DNA from: a virus
DNA: 22,521 nt
Virus record (IMG/VR): IMGVR_UViG_3300006637_000037
Location: 1-22,521 of that record
Strand: one strand, 5' to 3'
Shown here: one piece after another, positions 4,707-21,056 of the stretch
How the letters are laid out: each line of letters begins with the position of its first letter
How positions within the stretch are numbered: the stretch's first letter is position 1
Made by a program: the position numbers and the translations under genes
Notes under the pieces: model-generated
What the model was told of the DNA's origin: nothing
The model's database searches: none
The model's input: the letters and a program-made list of their open reading frames with translations, nothing else

Positions 4707-5222
4707 TTATACTTTTTCAAATGTGTACCCCGCAAATGTCTTACACTCACCCTTTAGGTGTGCAGATAACATTGTGTGTGATAAATTGTAAAATCTTGAT
4801 GCTTCTGCTTGACTATCAAATATTTTATTTGTTTCCTTGCATTTCACTTTGCACCTTTTCTTACCTTTTAAATTATTGTCTAAAGCGTGTTGATGGTTCA
4901 TTTTATAATCACACCATTCTAAATTGTCAATGTGATTGTTTGTTTTATTGCCATCCTTATGGTTAATAAACGTGTATTCACTTGAATTTAAAAAAGATTG
5001 TGCAACTAATCTATGAATTTTGTGTGCTTTTACTTTACCATTCTTGCAAAGACTTACTCTTTCATATCCTAATGAATCAACAATTTTTTTTATCTCTTTG
5101 CCTTTCCATTTTTTTGGTGTGCCATATCTTGATTTAATAACACGGTCTAAACTTCGCACATTGCCATAATTAGAAATTTGATACAACCCTTCGTATCCTT
5201 TTATGTTTTTATATTCTTCCAT
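4707..5222 (-). CDS. Free-standing HNH homing endonuclease (NUMOD4-HNH-NUMOD1)
   Basis: A 171-residue protein from the ATG at 5222 (an ATG at 5252 is also possible and would give a TAATG overlap with the fibre gene). Residues 3-50 are a NUMOD4 motif (IKGYEGLYQISNYGNVRSL). Residues about 70-112 are an HNH_3 core with HRLVAQSF, INHKDGN and NHIDNLEW giving the His-Asn-His pattern. Residues about 128-170 resemble a NUMOD1 DNA-binding segment (SQAEASRFYNLSHTMLSAHL). Such enzymes cut a specific DNA site and spread by copying into uncut relatives. The gene is clearly more AT-rich than its neighbours (17 G+C of 60 in 4921-4980 against 22 of 60 in 10021-10080), fitting a mobile gene lodged between structural genes. 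Confidence 0.85.
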   Translation of the reverse strand: MEEYKNIKGYEGLYQISNYGNVRSLDRVIKSRYGTPKKWKGKEIKKIVDSLGYERVSLCKNGKVKAHKIHRLVAQSFLNSSEYTFINHKDGNKTNNHIDNLEWCDYKMNHQHALDNNLKGKKRCKVKCKETNKIFDSQAEASRFYNLSHTMLSAHLKGECKTFAGYTFEKV

Positions 5223-5251
5223 ATTGCAATATACAAAATTCGTATTAAACA

Positions 5252-6949
5252 TTATAAAGTTGTTAAGGCTGCTAATTCGTCATTGGATAGACGGGTAGGG
5301 AATAAGATTGCTTGATTAGTTTTGTTTATTACATTTATGCTTGGGCTTGGATAATAAGAACCAATAAGTAATTCACTCATTGCTGGTACTGAACCACTTG
5401 TGTCCGTTCCAATTTGTATGCCATTTACATATAAGATAAAATCATTTGTTTTGTATGCATAGGCAACTTTTACTTTTGTCCCCTCAGCATATACGCCTGA
5501 GTTTATTTGGGCTTGTTCACTTGAACCCGAAAATGACCAACCTCTTATTTGATTTGTAGCGGTTAAGGTTATGTTTTGAGAATCGTTATATAAACCTCCT
5601 GAGCCACTTATTCTATAATGACTAAATAATGTGCCAGTTGGAGGCATAATAAACTCCGCATACATAGTCCCCTCCGTCTGCCCAATCAAAGAACTAATAC
5701 CCGTCTTATAACAAGAATCAGCCGACCTCGTAACACTACTACCATAGGTAGGTATGTAGGATGTGGGGTAACTTCCAGCCTCAGCCATAGCCCCATAAAT
5801 AAGTAGGTCAGCCGTATCGCTATTTATACCACCAAAAATGAGTAATTGAAACCTATCCGAACTGCTTGAATCTGTTACATCAAATCTTTGCCATTCGGTT
5901 GTAACATCAATGCTCTTAAATGTAGAACCACTTCTAATGCGCACATTACTTGTGCCACTTAAAGATTTTATATAAATGCTATTAGTAGTTGCAGTTCCCG
6001 TTGCAGTATAGTTATAGGCAATATATGATATGTCCGAAGTAGTAGTTCCCCCATTTAGATTTAATTGTAATCGAGAAGCGTTTTGCAATCCTTCTGGAGA
6101 TATTCCGTAATTGTCAGTAACAATAGCATTTGATCCCGTTCCTGCTGAAACTTTATTCCAAGAAGAATTTCCAAAGTACTCCGACTGCGTTACTACGTTA
6201 CTCCTCTGAGGCTCTAACAACAACGCTGGGCAACTACCACCCGAATAGTCAAGTCTTGGCATATCCTCTAATATACCCGCTTGTGCAGTTGTGGTGGTTG
6301 TTTCTATGTAGTCGGTTGCAACTAAGCCGCTTTCAAGTTGTGCGTCTTGGATGTAGATGTAATTTCCACTAATACCAGTATGGCTATTGTTGTTAGCTGG
6401 TGAAACTAAAAGTAATTGGTCAGCTTTGTTAGTAACAATAGAACAACGATACCAACCATTTCCTATATCTTCCATTGATGCATCAATAGGAGAACCACCA
6501 GTAGTACCTACCGCACCAGTTGATAAATTAAAATATGCTGATTGGTCTGTTCCAGTATGGTCAATATATAAATATAAAGAATTTACATCTCCAGCTTTAG
6601 CATAGATACTTGTTGTGCTAACTCCAGCGTTTGTTATGGTTTGAGTAATACGACTCCAACCACTTGTATCAGAGGTTAATTTCCAAGCACTTGTACCTCC
6701 ATCTTTGTCCGATTGCCCACTTGTTAGAATTGCCCCTGATCTTGACCAAGTCGTACTAAACGTATTACTCTGCAATAATACATTCTCCCTACCCTTCTCA
6801 ATTAACCCCTCACTATTAACACGAGTAGCCGCTAAGTTAGAACCACGACTGAAAGTGAAGTCACCATCTCCATTTGTTGGTTTGACACTATACAACTTGC
6901 CGTCTTTATATCCGCTTGGTATCATCACCAAACTTGCATCGTTTATCAT
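5252..6949 (-). CDS. Tail fibre / receptor-binding protein with lectin-like domains
   Basis: A 565-residue protein from the ATG at 6949, which overlaps the stop of the preceding 45-residue gene as ATGA (an upstream TTG at 6973 is unlikely). The N-terminus (GDFTFSRGSNLAATRVNSEG) is a segment I know from phage tail proteins. Two similar beta-sandwich, carbohydrate-binding-like domains follow, at about 55-200 (starting LLQSNTF, ending GNGWYRCSIV) and 250-400 (starting VVTQSEYFGNSSWNKV, ending EWQRFDVT). The last 150 residues look like a LamG / concanavalin A-like lectin domain (GTMYAEFIMPP, FILYVNGIQIGTD). It probably binds surface glycans of the host. No catalytic residues for a depolymerase are evident. 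Confidence 0.75.
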   Translation of the reverse strand: MINDASLVMIPSGYKDGKLYSVKPTNGDGDFTFSRGSNLAATRVNSEGLIEKGRENVLLQSNTFSTTWSRSGAILTSGQSDKDGGTSAWKLTSDTSGWSRITQTITNAGVSTTSIYAKAGDVNSLYLYIDHTGTDQSAYFNLSTGAVGTTGGSPIDASMEDIGNGWYRCSIVTNKADQLLLVSPANNNSHTGISGNYIYIQDAQLESGLVATDYIETTTTTAQAGILEDMPRLDYSGGSCPALLLEPQRSNVVTQSEYFGNSSWNKVSAGTGSNAIVTDNYGISPEGLQNASRLQLNLNGGTTTSDISYIAYNYTATGTATTNSIYIKSLSGTSNVRIRSGSTFKSIDVTTEWQRFDVTDSSSSDRFQLLIFGGINSDTADLLIYGAMAEAGSYPTSYIPTYGSSVTRSADSCYKTGISSLIGQTEGTMYAEFIMPPTGTLFSHYRISGSGGLYNDSQNITLTATNQIRGWSFSGSSEQAQINSGVYAEGTKVKVAYAYKTNDFILYVNGIQIGTDTSGSVPAMSELLIGSYYPSPSINVINKTNQAILFPTRLSNDELAALTTL

Positions 6950-7380: not shown

Positions 7381-9384
7381 TTATTCTACTAAACTAACCT
7401 TTTGGGTATTGCTTACCTTCGCTTGTGTTGATGTGATGTCTGACTCAACAACGTACACCTTCCTCATCTGTGTTAACTCGTTATCTGAGTTGATTACTCC
7501 ACCCAATCTTGGTGCATTTAATTGAGGTACTCCAGGTGATGATGGGACACCTCCCTTTGCACCTCCGGTTGGTGCTGGTGCTTTAATAATGTCGTATGCT
7601 CTCTTTGAGTTGGTAAGTATAGTACCGGCAAGTGCTATGTACTTTGCTATACCAGCAAGTCCACCAGTTAATACGTTGTCCGGTGTAGGTGATTGAGAGT
7701 TAGCCAATGCAGATGATAATGCCTTCGCCGTATCAGCCCCTATCTGTGCCAATGCCAATGCCTTACCTACCTTTGATTGTTGACCAGCTAACCCGATTAA
7801 TGCGTTTGCCAATCCTTGTGCTTCGTTGAATAGTCTATCCTTAACGTCTTGAACGGCTTGTTCGCGTTGAATCTCTGCTTGTTTGTTCTCCTCGTCTACT
7901 TGTGCAAGGTACTCTTGAAGTGCAACCTCCTCCTCGACTTGTTTGTTGAACGCCTCTAAGTTCTCGGCATCTACTTGAGCCAAGTATTCTTGCAATGCAA
8001 CTTGTTCCTCGACTTGCTTGTTGTGTTGCTCTTGATTAATCTTATCTATCTCAGCGTTCCTCAAGTACAATGCATCCTTATACGCTTGTGTTTCCTTGTC
8101 TAAACCTTTAACCAGGTCTTGGAACTGCCTCTCTGCTAATATGCGCCTCTTTTCATACTCATCCTTATCTATCAACTCACGTTGCCTTGCAAGGTCTTGA
8201 GCAAGTTTTAATAAAGCATCGTTGTTCTGTTTTTCAGTTTGTACTGCCTTCTCTTTATCCGCCTTTTGCTTGTCCTCAAATGATTTGTTTGATTTGCTCT
8301 TAATACCATTAGCCTTCTCAAGTTCATTTGCACTCTTAATAAGTGCTTCCGCCTCATTTTTTAAGTTAACTGATAATGCCTCTTTGTCTTTTTTGATTTT
8401 AGCAGCTCTTGTTTTATCAAGATTTTTTTCTAAATTATTAGCTGCTTGTTCTTGCTTGAAATATCCACCAGTAACATCATCAACCAACTTACCCATCAGT
8501 TTCTGACCGCTTAATACAATGTTTTCAGTTGAGCTTAGTTGCTTTTCGTTTTGTGCAGTGATAGCATCTGCTTGTGCTTGTGCTGCCTTTTCTAATAAAG
8601 CGTTTGCTAATGCTCTCTTTGCAGTTGCTTGAATATATGCCTCTGTCTTGGATACATAGTTAGCCTCTGCCTCCTCTATTGAATTAGCAACACCTAATGA
8701 ATCACCTAACGTTTCATTGTATTGGTGTAAAGCCTCCTCTTTAGATATAACTCCATCTTTGGCTAAGTCAAATGCAAGACCAACTTCATTTACTTGCTTT
8801 GTTGTTTCTGCTACGCTTTTATTGTATGTTTCTTGAGCATCATTCAACGCCTTCTGTGTTTCTTCTAAACCTTCAGCGCTATCAGCAAGGTCATCCCAAT
8901 ACTCAATCAATAAACCAACCGCAACAATCAATGTCCCTATACCAGTAGATGCTAATGCAATCTTACTTGCCTTACTAAAACCTTGTACTGATTTCGTTAA
9001 TGTGCTTTTAAATCCTTTCGCCAGGTTCTGTACTTCTGGTAAGAACTTCTTAAACCCGACTAACCCCTTAGACAATGACATTACCCCTTGCACCTTGAGG
9101 AGAGTGTTGTTTAACTCCTCAGATTGAGTGCCGAATAAACTCATTGCACCGATAGCAGCCTTGAATCCACTAACTAACGCCTTTGAGCCTTTGAATACTC
9201 CATCTACTTCAAGCTTTGCCTTCTTAGATGCATCTGCCGTCTTTGTCTGGGCTTTACTAAAGTCATCCGTTGCCTCACTTGTCGCTTCAATCGATTGAGT
9301 TAGTTGATCAAAGTCTTGTGATGCTTGTTGAACCGTGCCGTTGTCGTTAACGTCAATGTCTATGTTTACCTCTTGGTTTATCAT
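7381..9384 (-). CDS. Tail tape measure protein
   Basis: A 667-residue protein that sets tail length and helps deliver DNA. Residues 1-160 are helical and polar. A hydrophobic segment (IALASTGIGTLIVAVGLLIEY, near 144-164) may cross the host membrane. Long coiled coils rich in Ala, Glu, Lys and Gln run from about 165 to 520, followed by an Ala/Leu-rich hydrophobic region (520-610) and a Gly/Pro-rich tail. A 21-residue direct repeat (NKQVEE-VALQEYLAQVD-EN) occurs at 455-475 and 480-500. By the lambda rule of about 0.15 nm per residue the tail would be near 100 nm, if the protein is unprocessed. Its ATG overlaps the preceding stop as TAATG. The protein makes this phage a siphovirus or myovirus; no sheath gene is seen. 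Confidence 0.88.
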   Translation of the reverse strand: MINQEVNIDIDVNDNGTVQQASQDFDQLTQSIEATSEATDDFSKAQTKTADASKKAKLEVDGVFKGSKALVSGFKAAIGAMSLFGTQSEELNNTLLKVQGVMSLSKGLVGFKKFLPEVQNLAKGFKSTLTKSVQGFSKASKIALASTGIGTLIVAVGLLIEYWDDLADSAEGLEETQKALNDAQETYNKSVAETTKQVNEVGLAFDLAKDGVISKEEALHQYNETLGDSLGVANSIEEAEANYVSKTEAYIQATAKRALANALLEKAAQAQADAITAQNEKQLSSTENIVLSGQKLMGKLVDDVTGGYFKQEQAANNLEKNLDKTRAAKIKKDKEALSVNLKNEAEALIKSANELEKANGIKSKSNKSFEDKQKADKEKAVQTEKQNNDALLKLAQDLARQRELIDKDEYEKRRILAERQFQDLVKGLDKETQAYKDALYLRNAEIDKINQEQHNKQVEEQVALQEYLAQVDAENLEAFNKQVEEEVALQEYLAQVDEENKQAEIQREQAVQDVKDRLFNEAQGLANALIGLAGQQSKVGKALALAQIGADTAKALSSALANSQSPTPDNVLTGGLAGIAKYIALAGTILTNSKRAYDIIKAPAPTGGAKGGVPSSPGVPQLNAPRLGGVINSDNELTQMRKVYVVESDITSTQAKVSNTQKVSLVE
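7885..8022 (-). repeat. Two 63-base direct repeats within the tape measure gene
   Basis: Copies at 7960-8022 and 7885-7947 each encode 21 residues (NKQVEE-x-VALQEYLAQVD-x-EN), separated by 12 bases coding LEAF. The protein copies differ at two positions while the DNA differs at more, mostly synonymous, sites. The duplication is therefore not recent and the amino acid sequence has been kept. Confidence 0.8.
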
Positions 9385-12158
9385 TAGTGTCCGTGTGTTA
9401 TTATCCAGTATTGTGTGCCATCGGATACAACTTGGTCATATCCATTCTTTGCGTTGCTTGAGTGTGTGGTTGCATCGTCTATTAATATTGAACCATCTCC
9501 AGCCGTTATATCTATTTGATTGGATGCGTCTATCTTTTTAATTACATACATCTTACCGCTATTGTTAGTTGGATCGGGTAGTACTACATCGATACTCCCT
9601 CCACTTGTATCACATAGTATTAACCAATCATCATAGGTTGGTGTGTATGGGCTATCGGTGTTGTCAATAGTAACCACCTTGCCACTACCTAACCAAGTTC
9701 CGAGTACCGGTTGGTTCTCTACATACACCCTATCTGATTCGGGGATAGAGAAGTCCGTGCAACGTATAGCAGTAACGTTTTGGAAATCCCTTGATATGCC
9801 GGTGTTAGTACCACCGAGAACTGTGTTATAAATACCTTGTACGTTGTTGCCATCGCCAGTGCTTATGTTGTCATCATCTCCTTGATTGTCCCCTATGTTA
9901 ACACCTCCACTTGATGTACCCAAGAAACCACCACGCCCCTCTGTTGGGAAGTAATCTCCTTGTACACCACTACCATCATATCCACCTACCCCAACTGCAC
10001 CAGTGTTCCTTGCGAATGGTTGGTAATAAGTAGCAAGTAAGAACTCACACTCAAACACTCCATCCTCTAAAGGTGTATAGTCGGTAACCTTATTGAGCCT
10101 CCAGTATTGGTTCTCAAAGAAGTATAGGTTGTTGAACTTTAGGTTTACCCAATCATTAGGAGTGATTCGGAAGTACCCCTTAAAGATTTTAGAGTCCTTG
10201 TCGGCTATCTCGATAATAGTCTTGAAGTAGTACTCATTAACCAGGTTCTGATTGCTATACTCAAAGCCTATGTATGTCTTTGTACTTTGAGGTATACCAA
10301 AGCATAGGTCAAACTGCATATCGCTTGGATCATCGATGTGTAGAGTAACCGGATACTTAGTTGTATTAGCCGTTCCTGGTGTTTGGTTAAAGGTATAGTA
10401 TGCTGATGTAGTTGCTGCACCTCCATAGTACAACACCCTTAAGTTAGCATCGCCCTTTGGTATGTGAGAATAGTATCGAGTACCCTCTTGCATCATTATG
10501 GTAGGTGAGAAGGTTACGTCAATTAACTTTTCAGTCTTAATGAAGTCGTTGTCAATCCTTACTGTCCTATCGCCATATACTCGGTCGTATTGCTCTTTAT
10601 ATAGTTTGTTCTCCTCATCGTCTGTATCCTTGTAAGTGAACTTATAAGGGTTGCTCTGCAAGTCACCCATAGGGATGATTTGAGTCGGTTGAGAGTAATC
10701 AAGCTTAGCGGACCAGTTCACGTTGTCCCCATCATAGAAGTCATCACGAGGCACTATCCTTAACTCCTTACTATCAGTGTCCTCTATATATAGGTTGAAC
10801 ATCTTAACGAAGTTCAATAGCAAGTCCTTCTGTGTATACTCACCACTAAAGAACTGAGAGAAGTCAAGTCCATTGTTATACCCTAATAGGTTGGCTTTAG
10901 TTTCATTATAAACATAGCAGTTAGTTGTAAGTTGTTGAGTCGCTGAAACTCCTCCAGCATCTCTTGTAACACTATACTTAAACTGAACATAGTCACCATT
11001 GTTTAGGTTTCTTAACTGAACTGTACTTTGACCAGTTGTTTCTCCGTCACTAATAGATACATACATAGTGAAAGCAGATTGTCCATTAATCAATCCATCA
11101 ATCTCAATATCAATGTCACCAGATGAACCAACCCTTTCCAGTATTAAGGTGAATACATAACCAGCCGTATCAGGTGCAGTATACTTATAGGTAGTTGTAT
11201 CAAAGTTACCACCATTATCAAAGTTACCTCCGGTACTATCGTTGTTAAATGGTAATAGGTCGCCAGTGTTTAAGGTTACACCACTTGAGAATTGTGCTTG
11301 AAATAGTCTGTTGGTTGTGGTTGTCGAAGTAATACCTCCAAACTGATAGGGTAATACAAGCCGTTTAAATCGGTCTGTGTTAAAGAACGAGTCGCTTGTG
11401 TAGGTATACCCTACCGAACTAAATATCTTGTCTATAACGGTCTTGGCATACAAGCAAGGGATATGGTCATCCACTCTCCACTTATCAACGTTTGCTACAT
11501 TATGCTTGGGTAATGGTTGCATCCATACATACCCTTGACCATAGGCAAAAGAAGTAGGGCTACCATCAACGTATATCTGATTATCCCATGAGTCAATCAC
11601 ATTGGTGATGTTCATGGTGTGGTTGTACTCACTGAAATTAAGGTCGCTTAACTTAGCGTTCTCAAGTGAGGTGAATAGGTCAGCCGTCTGCCCATGTATA
11701 GTAGCGTTGTATATGATGTCCTTTGAGTCGTTAACAACTATCTCTGTCAAGCGTATGAACCCTCGTATCTGTTCCATACCATCAACCAACACCACAACGT
11801 TTGCCTTCTTGTTCGGGTTAAAGTCTGGTGCTAATTGGGAACTGCCGGTTATCTCATTACCCACCTCAAAGATGTGTGAGAATATACGGTTGTTGTTCTT
11901 AGTGCCTGGTAGTGTGATGGTCTTACTCCAATCGCTCGACCTACTCTGTGGCTCTTTGATGTCGGCAATAGAGCGTGTTATCTGAATGGTGAAGTCATCA
12001 AGCAAGTCTAACTTGGCATTTGTGTACCCTCCTCCTCCTAATGCTTCAATACCAGCCTCAAGGCACTCTAACGACTCGCATACACCTCCACCCGATAGGA
12101 CTCTTGGTGCATAGCTCTCAAATAGGTTTTTTGGAATGTCAATTATTATCTCTATCAT
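9384..12158 (-). CDS. Large tail-tip / baseplate-hub protein
   Basis: A 924-residue protein, the largest in the window. After a Gly-rich start (residues 22-45), residues 50-100 carry LLDDFTIQITRSIADI and WSKTITLPGTKNNNRIF, a signature I associate with tail-tip proteins of Bacteroidota siphophages. The middle is beta-rich, with two copies of NGGNFD in tandem (encoded around 11199-11228) and a stretch consistent with hub domains. The last 100 residues (VVLPDPTNNSGKMYVIKKID, ending YWIITHGH) resemble the C-terminal tip domain of phage fibres. It is coupled by ATGA to the previous gene and lies just before the tape measure, reversed relative to lambda, where the tape measure precedes the tip genes. 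A role in the adsorption apparatus is inferred from position and domain pattern. Confidence 0.7.
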   Translation of the reverse strand: MIEIIIDIPKNLFESYAPRVLSGGGVCESLECLEAGIEALGGGGYTNAKLDLLDDFTIQITRSIADIKEPQSRSSDWSKTITLPGTKNNNRIFSHIFEVGNEITGSSQLAPDFNPNKKANVVVLVDGMEQIRGFIRLTEIVVNDSKDIIYNATIHGQTADLFTSLENAKLSDLNFSEYNHTMNITNVIDSWDNQIYVDGSPTSFAYGQGYVWMQPLPKHNVANVDKWRVDDHIPCLYAKTVIDKIFSSVGYTYTSDSFFNTDRFKRLVLPYQFGGITSTTTTNRLFQAQFSSGVTLNTGDLLPFNNDSTGGNFDNGGNFDTTTYKYTAPDTAGYVFTLILERVGSSGDIDIEIDGLINGQSAFTMYVSISDGETTGQSTVQLRNLNNGDYVQFKYSVTRDAGGVSATQQLTTNCYVYNETKANLLGYNNGLDFSQFFSGEYTQKDLLLNFVKMFNLYIEDTDSKELRIVPRDDFYDGDNVNWSAKLDYSQPTQIIPMGDLQSNPYKFTYKDTDDEENKLYKEQYDRVYGDRTVRIDNDFIKTEKLIDVTFSPTIMMQEGTRYYSHIPKGDANLRVLYYGGAATTSAYYTFNQTPGTANTTKYPVTLHIDDPSDMQFDLCFGIPQSTKTYIGFEYSNQNLVNEYYFKTIIEIADKDSKIFKGYFRITPNDWVNLKFNNLYFFENQYWRLNKVTDYTPLEDGVFECEFLLATYYQPFARNTGAVGVGGYDGSGVQGDYFPTEGRGGFLGTSSGGVNIGDNQGDDDNISTGDGNNVQGIYNTVLGGTNTGISRDFQNVTAIRCTDFSIPESDRVYVENQPVLGTWLGSGKVVTIDNTDSPYTPTYDDWLILCDTSGGSIDVVLPDPTNNSGKMYVIKKIDASNQIDITAGDGSILIDDATTHSSNAKNGYDQVVSDGTQYWIITHGH

Positions 12159-13312
12159 AAACGCTGACTCTTGTCGGGGATAGACGTTTCAATCTCAAGT
12201 TGTAGGTTGAACACCTTGTCGTTGATGTGCTTCCTCTCCTCATATTGTGAGGTGGTTATGTTAACCGCTTTCAACGTGCCGTCATATAGCCATACTCTTG
12301 GACTCATTACCAACTCCTTTAACCATATCGCCTCTGCCTCTGTTATGTTGTTGGAGTTTAATGTTATCCTTTCGTTTGCCTCTGTGTAATAGTTGGACTT
12401 GGAGTGCGAGTCTACACCATAAGAGTACACACCACCACTTAAAGCGTATGGGTTGCTCTTATAAGACTTGCGAATGATGTCAATGGCATCTCTCCTTATC
12501 ATGTCAAATCGGAATGATTCAACGCCTCCTAACCTATTCAAGAAAAACAAATCAGTAGTGTTGTACTTACTGCATCGGTCATCAATAGTAATAGTATAAA
12601 CAGAACCAATAGCACTACCTCCACTATTCTTTGGAGTGATGGTATACGATGTCGTGCCACTTGGTATGCCTCCCGATATGTTCGATCCAATCGGTATGCG
12701 AATGACTTTATTGGTTGGGCAACTGATGTTGACACTACCAGAAGGAGAAAAACTAACAGATATAGTGTTGATTGTGCCATCGTTAAGAAGGTAGAGCCAA
12801 TCTTTTTGGTCACGATGTATACGCTTTGCATTGTTGTTTGTCAAGAACTGTGCAGTACTACCCGATGCCATCAGATAGTCGGTTAAGTCATAGTTAACCC
12901 AATCGATAGGGTTGATGTATCCATTCCATACAGTTGTACCGGTTACGCTTGTAACCCCAGTCGTTTGTACGATAGGTGATGTGGTGCCAGTGCTATACTC
13001 ATAACCAAAGTCAACTTTATAGTCATAGAACGAGTTGGTGCAACCACTTGCTGCCGTATCATTGTAGTTCCAATCATGAGTTACATAGTCCTCAAGTACC
13101 CTTGCTATGTTTACCACTCCTTCAGTAGATGATTGATAGTGTATAGGGAACTTTAAGCGTGTTATCAATGCCCCTCCACTTGTCTTGATGTCCGCTATGA
13201 ACTTGTAGTTGTAGTTTGATGAGTAACCACTTGCATCTGTAACCACATAAATGTTGTCGTTGTATGCTGGTTGATAGTTACCATTCTGATGGTTAACTGT
13301 AAGTGCTGCCAT
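12155..13312 (-). CDS. Tail structural protein (distal tail or tip component)
   Basis: A 385-residue beta-rich protein starting MAALTVNHQNGNYQPAYNDN, with a segment YKFIADIKTSGG and ending LEIETSIPDKSQRL. The C-terminal third (VESFRFDMIRRDAIDIIRKSYKS) is helical, then beta. Bacteroidota phages often carry this type of protein beside the large tip protein, and some are listed as virion structural proteins. It starts the tail transcription unit directly after the terminator at 13352-13394, with a leader TATTTATAATAA before the ATG. A TTTTG lies 20 bases upstream of that leader, giving a weak promoter candidate. It overlaps the next gene as ATGA. No enzymatic motif is seen, so the exact place in the tail is uncertain. 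Confidence 0.6.
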   Translation of the reverse strand: MAALTVNHQNGNYQPAYNDNIYVVTDASGYSSNYNYKFIADIKTSGGALITRLKFPIHYQSSTEGVVNIARVLEDYVTHDWNYNDTAASGCTNSFYDYKVDFGYEYSTGTTSPIVQTTGVTSVTGTTVWNGYINPIDWVNYDLTDYLMASGSTAQFLTNNNAKRIHRDQKDWLYLLNDGTINTISVSFSPSGSVNISCPTNKVIRIPIGSNISGGIPSGTTSYTITPKNSGGSAIGSVYTITIDDRCSKYNTTDLFFLNRLGGVESFRFDMIRRDAIDIIRKSYKSNPYALSGGVYSYGVDSHSKSNYYTEANERITLNSNNITEAEAIWLKELVMSPRVWLYDGTLKAVNITTSQYEERKHINDKVFNLQLEIETSIPDKSQRL

Positions 13313-13424: not shown

Positions 13425-14152
13425 TTACAATAATTCATTTAAACAAGCACAAACATAACTTTCAAATCCTTTATTGGCTGCTTGGTTCAATCGCTTGTTG
13501 CGTTCCTTTGTGATAGTGGTGTGAAAGGCTAAGGTGTTAAAGAACTCCACCAATGGCATCTCCAAGATTAAGTCCCACTCTGTCCGTTTGCCTCCAGCGA
13601 GTCGGTCGATGAGCGATAACCATCCAAAAGTTCCTCCATTTCCACCCTCCTCTCCTCCAAAAAGGATAGGGTAGCGTCCAACAACTTCGGATAGAGAGCC
13701 GAAAAAAAAAGCGCATAGTTATTGAAGTCTACTGCCTTAAGGTCTTTGAAGTTCTCCACCTTCCAATCATAGTCATCCTCAATACGCTTACCCCAGAAGT
13801 TAACTCGATAGGATAGTAATGCTATGATGATATGAAGGTTATCAATGATGTCCTCTTTGGCTACCTCTTGCAACTCAATGAAGTGATGTGCTTTCATCTC
13901 CTTTGCATTGGCAACCAACTTGAAACGTCTGTTCTTGTGTTTGAATGAGAAAGTAAACTTGCTCTTGGGCATCTCGCTTAAGAACGATAGGTCAAACTCT
14001 TTGAGCTTCTTCATAGTCCATTGCTGGACCTCCTCGTATGGTATGCCCTTTATGATAGCAACTATGTGTGCTGCTCTCTCGATAGGGTTAAACGTATCGT
14101 CAATCTCTTGTATGGCTTGTAACTTGCCAATGGTTATATCATCCCAGTTCAT
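13425..14152 (-). CDS. Tail assembly chaperone, extended -1 frameshift product (GT-like)
   Basis: If ribosomes slip back one base on the T run at 13702-13710, the first 150 codons of the 194-residue chaperone join a second frame of 92 codons that is open to a TAA at 13425, giving about 242 residues. The extension begins FGSLSEVVGRYPILFGG and contains FGWLSLIDRLAGGKRTEWD and ILEMPLVEFFNTLAF, a well-formed helical domain that resembles the C-terminal part of tail chaperone T domains. It has no start codon of its own in a sensible place, and half of it lies beyond the end of the first frame. In lambda the G and GT proteins bind the tape measure and recruit tail tube protein. The frame arrangement is seen directly; the slippage is inferred. 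Confidence 0.75.
13568..14152 (-). CDS. Tail assembly chaperone, unshifted product (G-like)
   Basis: A 194-residue helical protein starting MNWDDITIGKLQAIQEIDD. It has KFTFSFKHKNRRFKLV and MKAHHFIELQEVAKED in the middle, and a Glu-rich helix after residue 165 that ends in a polar tail (SLEANGQSGT). The start (short helix, NPIERAAHIVAIIKGIPYEEV) is typical of tail chaperone proteins in Bacteroidota phages. Codons 148-150 (CTT TTT TTT) lie on the slippery run, so this is the zero-frame product. It overlaps the upstream nuclease gene by 14 bases. In the usual order such genes precede the tape measure, and here they do, with two tail genes and a terminator between. Confidence 0.78.
   Translation of the reverse strand: MNWDDITIGKLQAIQEIDDTFNPIERAAHIVAIIKGIPYEEVQQWTMKKLKEFDLSFLSEMPKSKFTFSFKHKNRRFKLVANAKEMKAHHFIELQEVAKEDIIDNLHIIIALLSYRVNFWGKRIEDDYDWKVENFKDLKAVDFNNYALFFSALYPKLLDATLSFLEERRVEMEELLDGYRSSTDSLEANGQSGT
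13702..13710 (-). promoter_or_regulatory. Programmed -1 frameshift site (run of nine T)
   Basis: The minus strand reads C followed by nine T and C. In the zero frame this is CTT TTT TTT TCG, containing the slippery heptamer T_TTT_TTT at 13709-13703. Both tRNAs can re-pair perfectly after a one-base slip. The new frame stays open for 92 codons, past the zero-frame stop. Confidence 0.75.
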
Positions 14153-14477
14153 AATCTATTATTGTTTCTTGAAACTCCTCAAAGGTACGACATACAACAT
14201 ACTTGTACCCTCTCGATTCTGCATTTGCTTGAAATAGTACTTGGTTCTCTGTTTGTTTAGTCTTAGGCAACTTCATCTCTATGAATAGTCCATTGTATCC
14301 ACCACTTGCACTCATAACGAATAGGTCCGCTACTCCACTCAACACACCCTCTCGCTTTAAGGTCACCGCTTGTCTTATATCTCGGTTGCCTCCATTAGGT
14401 ATGGCAAAGATAACGTGGAAAGGGTATTGGTACCTAAACCACTTGACACACTCTGCTTGTAAGGTTGATTCACGCAT
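14139..14477 (-). CDS. VRR-NUC domain nuclease
   Basis: A 112-residue protein from the ATG at 14477 (MRESTLQAECVKWFRYQYP); the frame is open further upstream but lies inside the terminase gene. It is a single VRR-NUC (PD-(D/E)xK superfamily) domain: an early Glu in LQAE, IPNGGNRD, GVADLFV with the catalytic Asp, and FIEMK with the Glu-x-Lys pair. Such small nucleases resolve branched DNA or act in replication and packaging; in phages they often lie beside replication or terminase genes. It overlaps the terminase by 8 bases and the chaperone by 14. Length fits a stand-alone phage form. Confidence 0.85.
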   Translation of the reverse strand: MRESTLQAECVKWFRYQYPFHVIFAIPNGGNRDIRQAVTLKREGVLSGVADLFVMSASGGYNGLFIEMKLPKTKQTENQVLFQANAESRGYKYVVCRTFEEFQETIIDYELG

Positions 14478-15654
14478 ATAAAAATAGTCCTGGTTTGTTG
14501 TGTTGTTTGCAATCCCATGCAAGAGCCAGGCTCATCACACAATCATCGTGCAACCCTTGAGGTGCTTCATACTTAACTCCGGTTCGTGAATAGTTAAACT
14601 CAAAGTTACGCATCTCATCGGCAATAGCCCCATCTGGGAAACCTATGTTGCCACCTTGCACTGCCATAACTAACCCTTCAATGAGTTGTTGCTTTGATTG
14701 AGAGGTAAACTTAAACCCCTTAACTCTTGGATGCTCTCTTTGTAGTTGCTCAACGATAGGATCTCCTACACCGGTTGAGTCAATGAACGCTGGTGTGTTG
14801 CCTATCGTTTGTTTTATGGTTGCTAACGTCTGCGACCAATCCTTTTGAAACCTATCGAAGTATGCTACATTGCCCTCTTGATTAAGCCCTATGATAACAG
14901 TCCAATCCGTATACTTAGCAAGGTCTATGCCATAGCAAGTAGGTACTCCGTTGATTGATGTTATGCAGTTATCGATGTTAGTATGCCCAAAAGGGTTTGA
15001 GTTGTCCTCTGATGGTTCGGCAAGGTATAACTCTCTAAATATGTAATCGGGTAGGTCACGCTTGGCTTGTTCAATCTCCTCAACCTTGAGTATACCTTCC
15101 TTCGCTGCATCGTAAGCCGTTATCTTAAAGTACTCCATGTTTGGATCACCCGACTTGGCTCTCTCTCCCAACTTATAGAACCAATTCTTCTTACCCTTGA
15201 CATTACCTATCAACTTACACTTGCCTTGTGTTGCAGTTAAGGTTGAACGTAGAGCAAACCAACTGTCCTCTCGTGAACGTGACGCCTCATCAAAGACGGC
15301 AGCGTACACATCCTCGCCATATAGGTTGTCTGGCTTCTCTGCTGACTTAAACTCAATGCGTGAACCCATAGGAGTGGTTAAGACTAACTTGCTCTCATTG
15401 GATATAAAGAAGTCCTTGATGTTTACTTGAGCCTTCATACGTCTAAAGGCAATCTCTGCTTGTTGGTATACCGGTGCAACCCACCATACCGATTGATTGT
15501 TGTTAAGGTTAAGTGCTTGTTCAAATAGCCAGATGATATGACTTGCCGTCTTACCGGTCTTGGTTGATGCTGCCGTTATCGTGTAACGTGCTGGGCTATC
15601 AAGGATGGCTTGTTGGTATGAGGTGAGGTATGGTCTATCGTAGTTTATTTGCAT
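14470..15654 (-). CDS. terL: Terminase large subunit
   Basis: A 394-residue packaging motor. The ATPase part shows a Walker A-like loop AASTKTGKT (28-36), Walker B YAAVFDEA (117-124) and a coupling motif around LIGNVKGKKNW (148-158). The C-terminal RNase H-like nuclease has Asp in YGIDLAKYTDWTV (D244), in FIDSTGVGDP (D292) and in LHDDCVMSLALA (D370/D371). It cuts concatemeric DNA and drives it into the procapsid through the portal. The protein is on the short side for the family, but all motifs are present. It overlaps the upstream membrane-protein gene by 10 bases. Small terminase and large terminase are separated here by three other genes. Confidence 0.93.
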   Translation of the reverse strand: MQINYDRPYLTSYQQAILDSPARYTITAASTKTGKTASHIIWLFEQALNLNNNQSVWWVAPVYQQAEIAFRRMKAQVNIKDFFISNESKLVLTTPMGSRIEFKSAEKPDNLYGEDVYAAVFDEASRSREDSWFALRSTLTATQGKCKLIGNVKGKKNWFYKLGERAKSGDPNMEYFKITAYDAAKEGILKVEEIEQAKRDLPDYIFRELYLAEPSEDNSNPFGHTNIDNCITSINGVPTCYGIDLAKYTDWTVIIGLNQEGNVAYFDRFQKDWSQTLATIKQTIGNTPAFIDSTGVGDPIVEQLQREHPRVKGFKFTSQSKQQLIEGLVMAVQGGNIGFPDGAIADEMRNFEFNYSRTGVKYEAPQGLHDDCVMSLALAWDCKQHNKPGLFLYA

Positions 15655-19581: not shown

Positions 19582-20016
19582 TCAACATATTCCCAACATC
19601 TCAATAGTTTGGTTGTAGTAATCGCACTCAGGTTGGTAGCCCATGTCCAAAAAGTCTTGGTAGGTATCCTTGCCATGTATGACGCTTGAATGATCTCGGT
19701 TAGTGAACAACCCTATCTTGGTCAATGGTAAACCTAAATGCCTTGAGGCAATGTAAAAGAACAAATGCCTGGCAATGACATATTCCCTCTTGCGTGACCT
19801 TGAGCATAACTCCATCGGTAACACTCCAGTTGTACTGCATACTATGTCCAACAACTGCTCTAATGTAGCGTTAGCCATCTTTGGCTTAAATGGTTTAGCA
19901 ATCTGGTTTCTTAATCGTTCAATCTCCTTTTCAAGGGATAGTACCTTGTTGCGGTGTGACACCTTCTGCCTTGCTAATTGGCTTTTTAGTTTGATGTATT
20001 CATATTCGTAGTTCAT
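19582..20016 (-). CDS. DnaA domain IV-like DNA-binding protein with coiled-coil N-terminus
   Basis: A 144-residue protein. Residues 1-40 form a coiled coil (SHRNKVLSLEKEIERLRNQI). Residues 50-120 match the C-terminal DNA-binding domain of bacterial DnaA: a helix starting LEQLLDIVC, CSRSRKREYVIARHLFFYI at 71-89, GLPLTKIGLFTNRDHSSVIHG at 95-115. The DHSSVIHG is the DnaA signature (D-H-T/S-x-V-x-x). There is no AAA+ domain, so it could recognise DnaA boxes but not load helicase by ATP-driven assembly. It lies one gene from the DnaB helicase, coupled by ATGA to the methyltransferase. Roles as an origin-binding protein of the phage or as a competitor of host DnaA are both plausible. Confidence 0.82.
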   Translation of the reverse strand: MNYEYEYIKLKSQLARQKVSHRNKVLSLEKEIERLRNQIAKPFKPKMANATLEQLLDIVCSTTGVLPMELCSRSRKREYVIARHLFFYIASRHLGLPLTKIGLFTNRDHSSVIHGKDTYQDFLDMGYQPECDYYNQTIEMLGIC

Positions 20017-21056
20017 AGTTGTTTAAATATTTCGTATGCTACTTGTGGCACTATTGCGTTTCCGTATCCTTTGATGCTTTCTGATCTCCACTTTGAAAAG
20101 GTAATTCCGTCCAATTCGGTGGGAAGCCCATCATCTCCGCCACAAATCGGGGATTGAGTTGGGAAGTTTGACCAGTCATTTGTCGAACTCTTTTTGTCAT
20201 TGAATCTTGATTTTCTAATCCTGTTATCTTGTCCCCTTCCTGTGCTTGTGGTGTCGGTAGCATCCCCATTGCCATCGCTCTGTTCAATGTCACGCTGTGC
20301 ATACTCCCCTCCTTGACTTGTGTTGATTTCATCGTTGCTGTCGCATTTGTTGAGTCCATTGCTGTTGGTGTCGGTAGCATTTGTGGAATTTGAAAATTTC
20401 TGAATGTTTCCACATGATTCACACCTTGTTTCTTTAATTCTATTGCAAAAACTCTGTCCACTAACAATTCTTGTACTTTTGGCTTTTCCCCTGACAATAG
20501 AGCATTCACTACACCCTTGTGAGGAATCCCACCCCTTCCGTGTGTCCCTGGACATATTGTCGGTAGCATTTTTGATTCCAACAAACCAGCATCTGTCTCG
20601 TCTATGCGGTGCGTTTTTGGCTGCAGCTGGAATAATAAACGCTTGAACTTCGTACCCTTCAGCTTCCAAGTCAATGCACACCTGTTCGAAAACCATTCCG
20701 CCGTCAATATTCGTGATACCAAAGACATTTTCTGCAATGACATATTTGGGTTTAATTTCTTGTATTGCTCTAAGCATCTCTCCCCATAGATAGCGTTCGT
20801 CTTTTGTTCCTTTTCTTTTTCCAGCCATTGAGAATGGTTGGCATGGGAATCCTCCTGTGAAAATGTCAATTTTGTTTGCATATTTTTTAAAATCAGTTTT
20901 ACATATATCAATTAAACTATCAGCATTAGGGAAATGATATTCTAATACTTTGCGTGGAAATTCCATCCACTCGCAGTGGAATACGTTCTCCCAACCCATC
21001 CATTCGGCAGCAAGATCAAAGCCACCTATACCACTAAATAAACTTCCGTGCCTCAT
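20013..21056 (-). CDS. DNA (cytosine-5) methyltransferase
   Basis: A 347-residue enzyme that methylates C5 of cytosine in DNA. Motif I is LFSGIGGFDLA (6-16), motif IV GGFPCQPFS with catalytic Cys72, motif VI AENV (108-111), motif VIII APHRRDRCWFVG (149-160), and motif X YGNAIVPQVAYEIF (331-344). The region between VIII and X (160-320), where the target recognition domain lies, is unusually rich in Asn, Thr, Ser and Asp, with three NATD or DATD motifs at 63- and 39-codon spacing. The N-terminus is in ATGA overlap with the helicase and the C-terminus with the DnaA-like gene. No restriction partner is visible, so it is probably an orphan enzyme protecting phage DNA. A second frame is open inside the same DNA. 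Confidence 0.92.
   Translation of the reverse strand: MRHGSLFSGIGGFDLAAEWMGWENVFHCEWMEFPRKVLEYHFPNADSLIDICKTDFKKYANKIDIFTGGFPCQPFSMAGKRKGTKDERYLWGEMLRAIQEIKPKYVIAENVFGITNIDGGMVFEQVCIDLEAEGYEVQAFIIPAAAKNAPHRRDRCWFVGIKNATDNMSRDTRKGWDSSQGCSECSIVRGKAKSTRIVSGQSFCNRIKETRCESCGNIQKFSNSTNATDTNSNGLNKCDSNDEINTSQGGEYAQRDIEQSDGNGDATDTTSTGRGQDNRIRKSRFNDKKSSTNDWSNFPTQSPICGGDDGLPTELDGITFSKWRSESIKGYGNAIVPQVAYEIFKQL
20051..20911 (-). CDS. Overlapping +1-frame ORF inside the methyltransferase gene (LPTP-type protein)
   Basis: On the same strand but in the +1 frame of the cytosine methyltransferase, an ATG at 20911 opens 286 codons to a stop at 20051. The product has features I associate with a phage protein family of unknown function: EDSHANHSQWLEKEKEQKT, FSNRCALTWKLKGTKFKRLL then FQLQPKT, repeated MLPT motifs (MLPTICPG, MLPTPTAMD, MLPTPQAQE), and a C-terminal LNPRFVAEMMGFPPNWTELP. 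The second frame covers motifs IV to X of the methyltransferase, whose own frame is also fully conserved in the motifs, so both are protein-like at once. Whether it is translated is unknown: no ribosome site is evident. A long chance frame with misleading similarity is the alternative. Confidence 0.35.
   Translation of the reverse strand: MIYVKLILKNMQTKLTFSQEDSHANHSQWLEKEKEQKTNAIYGERCLEQYKKLNPNMSLQKMSLVSRILTAEWFSNRCALTWKLKGTKFKRLLFQLQPKTHRIDETDAGLLESKMLPTICPGTHGRGGIPHKGVVNALLSGEKPKVQELLVDRVFAIELKKQGVNHVETFRNFQIPQMLPTPTAMDSTNATATMKSTQVKEGSMHSVTLNRAMAMGMLPTPQAQEGDKITGLENQDSMTKRVRQMTGQTSQLNPRFVAEMMGFPPNWTELPFQSGDQKASKDTETQ

Follow-up and report, generated by a model that had tools for sequence, protein, structure and literature searches.

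We analysed a 22,521-nt stretch of DNA (hereafter 'the window'), a 22.5-kb virus fragment from IMG/VR in which almost every gene lies on the minus strand. One of these genes contains a run of nine T residues (T9), at which a programmed -1 frameshift had been proposed from inspection of the letters. The features of the locus and its surroundings are as follows:

13425..13703, minus strand: -1 frame extension, 92 codons plus stop, a predicted helical domain with the motif FGWLxxIDRLAGGxRxEWD
13702..13710, minus strand: T9 slippage run, codons CTT TTT TTT T, with T_TTT_TTT in register
13568..14152, minus strand: zero-frame open reading frame (ORF; short product), 194 aa, of which residues 1-150 are common to the long product
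14139..14522, minus strand: VRR-NUC nuclease gene, just upstream (PF08774, E = 2.9e-6)
14470..15654, minus strand: terminase large subunit, a neighbour conserved in both families of relatives
12155..13312, minus strand: 385-aa gene, downstream, homologous to Nonlabens gene 45
9384..12158, minus strand: 924-aa gene, homologous to Nonlabens gene 46
7381..9384, minus strand: probable tape measure protein, 667 aa (phrog_1538, E = 3e-6)

Zero-frame codons 148-151 read CTT TTT TTT TCG across the run (13710..13702). A -1 shift after Phe150 would lead into 92 open codons that begin at 13703 and are closed by the stop codon 13427-13425, which lies 143 nt farther on than that of the zero frame, for a predicted long product of 150 + 92 = 242 aa; the original prediction had given all of these coordinates correctly to the base. 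From stop to stop, the -1 frame spans 13718..13425 and, because its stop sits just upstream of T9, a shift is possible only at the run. No in-frame ATG occurs until deep within the extension, and that one is not conserved (relative L005, for example, has ILNLSL), so that an internal start would drop the conserved first half of the extension, and the earlier view that the extension has no plausible start of its own is upheld. The +1 frame runs for 63 codons from stop to stop in the window. An AF2 model of the common part has a mean pLDDT of 81; the extension is modelled as helical, as had been proposed, although at modest confidence (pLDDT 72). A second contig, the 28.8-kb IMGVR_UViG_3300025630_001148, carries a gene identical to that of the window and, being longer, could provide portions of this phage that the window lacks.

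Near relatives were collected with separate searches for the common part and the extension, neither of which used a pattern covering the run, and with a third search based on the extension alignment. At all 122 of their 122 loci, the run is exactly T9 and the relation between the frames is always -1, with variable flanks. A second, distant family was reached through structure: when BFVD was searched with the common-part model, 32 uncharacterised phage proteins matched, including one of the Nonlabens phage P12024S (a match to Flavobacterium phage 6H, with a TM of 0.27 and a different gene arrangement, was rejected). In the cultured phage P12024L, the corresponding gene, P12024L_40, lies directly after the terminase gene and carries the T9 run, near position 24390 of JQ823123, in an identical register (ATA CTT TTT TTT TAT), with the -1 frame open to 24640; only the last 55 codons of that frame are annotated, as P12024L_41. 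P12024S is split likewise (P12024S_38/_39), and in both phages the annotation is of two separate hypothetical genes, in line with the original prediction that ordinary gene calling would miss the extension. Profile comparison joins the common parts of the two families (97.6%, E = 3.9e-12, 15% identity) with the slip codons for FF aligned, and the extensions likewise (hhalign 96.6%, E = 5e-10). Both families share the gene block of terminase, recoded gene, and homologues of the 385-aa and 924-aa genes. The distant family matches only PHROG 32199 (function not assigned), and the -1 relation holds in 138 of its 138 loci.

When lineages are defined by less than 90% nucleotide identity, the two families comprise 187, with 9 T in 162, 10 T in 25, and none shorter or longer; all of them keep T_TTT_TTT in register. 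Three further DNA-pattern scans for loci without the run (80, 73, and 80 usable loci) yielded no exception. The first, with the pattern HKAMAVLYRP located 45 codons upstream, found T9 or T10 with an open -1 frame in 80/80; the second, with the upstream pattern GEYxDLDTY, fetched 75 new loci, two of which end before the site, and found T9 or T10 in the other 73/73; the third, in which all synonymous forms were allowed (GTN TTY TTY TAY CRY TTA GG), found GTT TTT TTT in 80/80 listed homologues. The FF codons were part of the patterns, degenerate at the DNA level, in the distant-family searches and the third scan, and were absent from those of the initial common-part and extension searches and of the two upstream scans. 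Elsewhere in these genes, Phe is encoded by TTT in 64% of cases, and Val and Leu codons end in T in 27%. No relative was found that lacks the run or has stops in the -1 frame, either of which the original prediction had named as refuting it. By this comparative evidence, the T9 recoding is kept throughout hundreds of mostly uncultured aquatic phages and two cultured ones.

A motif scan recovered both parts of the gene in a Winogradskyella metagenome-assembled genome (MAG), a Bacteroidetes MAG, and a Euryarchaeota MAG, all of which may contain misbinned phage contigs; the contig from the last of these, PBGL02000003.1, has the common part and the extension with T9 and belongs either to a misbinned phage or to a virus of marine archaea. 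As to the host, the A2 search found no relative in genome contigs. Separately, gene 3 of Elizabethkingia phage TCUEAP1 (positions 2164-2706 of its locus), directly after the terminase gene, includes a segment, in frame, that is similar to the extension (hhalign E = 1.5e-4, probability 52%), with no match to the common part and no slippery run. This gene may have arisen by natural fusion or may be a distant relative.

Selection distinguishes the three frames. Past the zero-frame stop, 36 representatives give pN/pS values of 0.25 (-1 frame), 1.16 (zero frame), and 1.98 (+1 frame). On that value, and given its length of about three codons in the distant family, the +1 frame was rejected as coding. 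Upstream of the run, the zero frame has a pN/pS of 0.33 and its silent sites are near saturation (pS 0.80); where the frames overlap, pS drops to 0.30-0.39 in the same representatives, as is expected if both frames are read. In near relatives, the position of the -1 stop is fixed within 6 nt and the zero-frame stop drifts over about 54 nt; the nearest of them also conserve the zero-frame tail that follows the run. Across 1,262 kb of sense-strand ORFs from the relatives, just two runs of nine or more T lie elsewhere, compared with 256/256 at the site. Given this rarity, the invariance of the run, and purifying selection in the -1 frame only, chance is ruled out, and recoding at the T9 run is, on these comparisons, under selection. 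Recoding into the -1 frame at T9, the core of the original prediction, is thus near certain as judged from the alignments.

Two explanations that dispense with recoding have to be set against these results. That the extension has its own start and constitutes an independent gene downstream, as annotated in P12024L and P12024S (the 55-aa P12024L_41 and P12024S_39), is very improbable: conservation of the -1 frame sets in at the run, ahead of any start codon; the annotated 55-aa gene starts from an internal ATG and omits the conserved YPELY part; and the T run would have no cause to stay invariant. Homopolymers are error-prone, and the run might accordingly be a sequencing or assembly artefact that splits one gene, or mark a pseudogene. 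That reading we consider hardly credible at all, given that cultured genomes and hundreds of independent contigs agree on the length of the run, that the zero-frame tail is conserved in the nearest relatives, and that silent change is depressed in the overlap.

The level at which the slip occurs is less clear. The original prediction had assumed a frameshift; the recoding stands, but its assignment to the ribosome is only one possibility, and the restriction to 9-10 T suggests RNA-polymerase slippage at least as much as ribosomal slippage. If programmed transcriptional slippage alone were responsible, the polymerase would add one U at T9 and ribosomes would read the resulting T10 mRNA normally. 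Bacterial polymerase slips efficiently at runs of nine A or T, and its RNA-DNA hybrid is 9-10 bp long (PMC5009743); the run fits both this threshold and the hybrid. The confinement to 9-10 T over 187 lineages, in which the run is seen in all three codon registers, points the same way. So does the lack of RNA structure: stimulatory downstream structure was sought in 80-nt windows of 105 sequences, and none was found (mean z -0.22 to 0.11). An eight-pair stem proposed by RNAalifold for near relatives (columns 47-55 with 116-124) was rejected, as it consists mostly of invariant pairs in dual-coded codons and is broken in some relatives. Three lineages short of T on one side of the run have more on the other (AGT TTT TTT TTG; AAT TTT TTT TTT; TTT TTT TTT CTG), a pattern with a permutation value of 4.5e-4 if the two sides are independent, calculated from three lineages only and with kinship ignored. 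The case for the polymerase comes down to these three informative lineages plus the floor and ceiling on run length, and both limits have other possible sources: the floor could also stem from amino-acid constraint (V/L/I ahead of FF, F/L as the first residue of the -1 frame), and the ceiling from the mutational instability of long runs. We regard transcriptional slippage alone as evenly poised between right and wrong.

A classical programmed -1 ribosomal frameshift on U_UUU_UUU, with tRNA-Phe slipping in the P and A sites and unstimulated as in lambda G/GT, deserves substantial, if minority, weight. All lineages keep the heptamer in register, the frameshifts known from tail chaperones take place on the ribosome, and some shifts of tailed phages appear to occur without stimulators (PMC5009743), so that the absence of structure is not fatal to it. 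Against it, the heptamer needs 7 T, yet nothing below 9 was found and T lost on one side is offset on the other; besides the missing downstream structure, no Shine-Dalgarno-like element is visible upstream of the run in the alignment. Slippage by both polymerase and ribosome at the same run seems unlikely.

The function of the two products has to be judged largely from context. The recoded gene is next or nearly next to the terminase gene, and the 385-aa and 924-aa genes precede the tape measure gene; the idea that it sits before the tape measure as in the lambda G/GT arrangement does not hold. In most relatives, the recoded gene abuts the terminase gene, so that the VRR-NUC gene, found between them in the window and in only six near-relative loci, looks inserted. 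Two other observations concern the window at large. A NUMOD4/HNH homing-type endonuclease gene (4707-5252) is inserted in the structural block, and a C5 cytosine DNA methylase gene (20013-21056; PF00145, E = 1e-47) encloses a second ORF on the same strand in another frame (20051-20911, 286 aa), which has a protein-like sequence and no Pfam match and is possibly an instance of dual coding.

In tailed phages, paired small products made from one structural gene by a -1 shift are a hallmark of tail assembly chaperones. In the lambda G/GT type, the short and long forms are made at about 30:1 and are absent from virions; the common part binds the tape measure protein and the extension binds the tail tube. 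By this analogy, it is plausible that the recoded pair is a tail assembly chaperone. Of the extended tail chaperone originally predicted, the extended product is retained and the identity as a chaperone is less secure: no chaperone family was matched in Pfam or PHROG, sequence and fold searches of the PDB gave no match, and BFVD gave a single match bearing the name 'tail assembly chaperone', a weak one (E = 2e-3, TM 0.39). The pair could instead be another assembly protein working with the terminase or with the neck or connector. Its position directly after the terminase gene is conserved in most relatives, and the Nonlabens genes that follow include a weak neck/tail-completion match (phrog_5, E = 4e-4); on the other hand, pairs produced by a -1 shift typify tail chaperones, and the same gene block continues to the tape measure gene. 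We consider such a terminase or neck role a possibility to be reckoned with, short of a probable one.

Taken as a whole, the reading that we consider probable is that one start gives rise to two proteins by a slip at T9—probably of the polymerase, or of the ribosome, or of both—and that these form a set-ratio assembly pair, most likely a tail-assembly chaperone. Most copies would end at 194 aa in the zero frame, and a minority would be recoded at T9 into the -1 frame to give the 242-aa protein, in which the last 44 residues are exchanged for the conserved 92-residue helical domain. The slip would consist of RNA polymerase adding one U on 9-10 T, of a ribosomal -1 shift on U_UUU_UUU, or of both. 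The two proteins would then act as an assembly pair of set ratio like lambda gpG/gpGT, with the common part and the extension presumably binding different tail partners. The two-product reading follows from the invariant run, the two selected frames, the fixed -1 relation, and the lack of another plausible start for the second frame. Several points weigh against parts of it: amino-acid preference alone (V/L/I ahead of FF and, in the -1 frame, F/L right behind it) could account for two of the nine T's; the selected core might be the T_TTT_TTT heptamer alone, which only three lineages oppose; the recoded gene is not adjacent to the tape measure gene in either family; and the sole chaperone-named fold match is weak, with none in the PDB.

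In the open-access literature, we found no prior report of the T9 case under tail-chaperone transcriptional slippage or frameshifts of flavobacterial phages, nor, in what was searched of it, any phage assembly gene that uses programmed transcriptional slippage; a paper on North Sea flavobacterial phages mentions neither frameshift nor chaperone (PMC8776804). The reading proposed here names a hidden product in a large group of phages in which gene calling yields 'hypothetical protein' (PHROG 32199), and provides a marker sequence for the assembly gene next to the terminase gene. With 9-10 T over 187 lineages and the cultured Nonlabens phages P12024L/S, the gene is also a natural test case for ribosomal versus transcriptional slippage. 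A broader proposition is that widespread aquatic, largely Bacteroidota-type tailed phages set the ratio of a lambda G/GT-like pair by RNA-polymerase slippage at T9-T10, kept at about 15% protein identity; to this we give nearly, but not quite, as much credence as doubt. If polymerase slippage is true, assembly-protein ratios in phages are not tied to the ribosome, contrary to the usual assumption.

Among known systems, lambda gpG/gpGT (Xu, Hendrix and Duda 2004; PMC5009743) resembles the window gene in being a small gene of the structural block with a -1 shift near its end, and in having a short form and a C-terminally extended form with a shared N-terminus, which in the window gene is supported by conservation only. 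The two differ in that no sequence or fold relation is detectable; in that the window gene has a T9 run, at which the slip may be transcriptional, in place of the lambda slippery heptamer; and in that it lies next to the terminase gene, whereas genes of the lambda G/GT type lie immediately before the tape measure gene and after that for the major tail protein. Established cases of transcriptional slippage (Thermus dnaX, Shigella mxiE/spa13/spa33, and Citrobacter tssM) are alike in having 9 (10) T and no obvious RNA stimulators. In them, an extended product is made by one-base insertion, as it would be in the window gene if the polymerase slips. Further counterparts are PHROG 32199 and the P12024L_40/_41 and P12024S_38/_39 genes (Inhavirus): although these have about 15% profile identity to the window gene and are annotated as separate proteins with no function assigned, they are homologous to it in the gene as well as in the -1 extension, and their T9 has an identical register.
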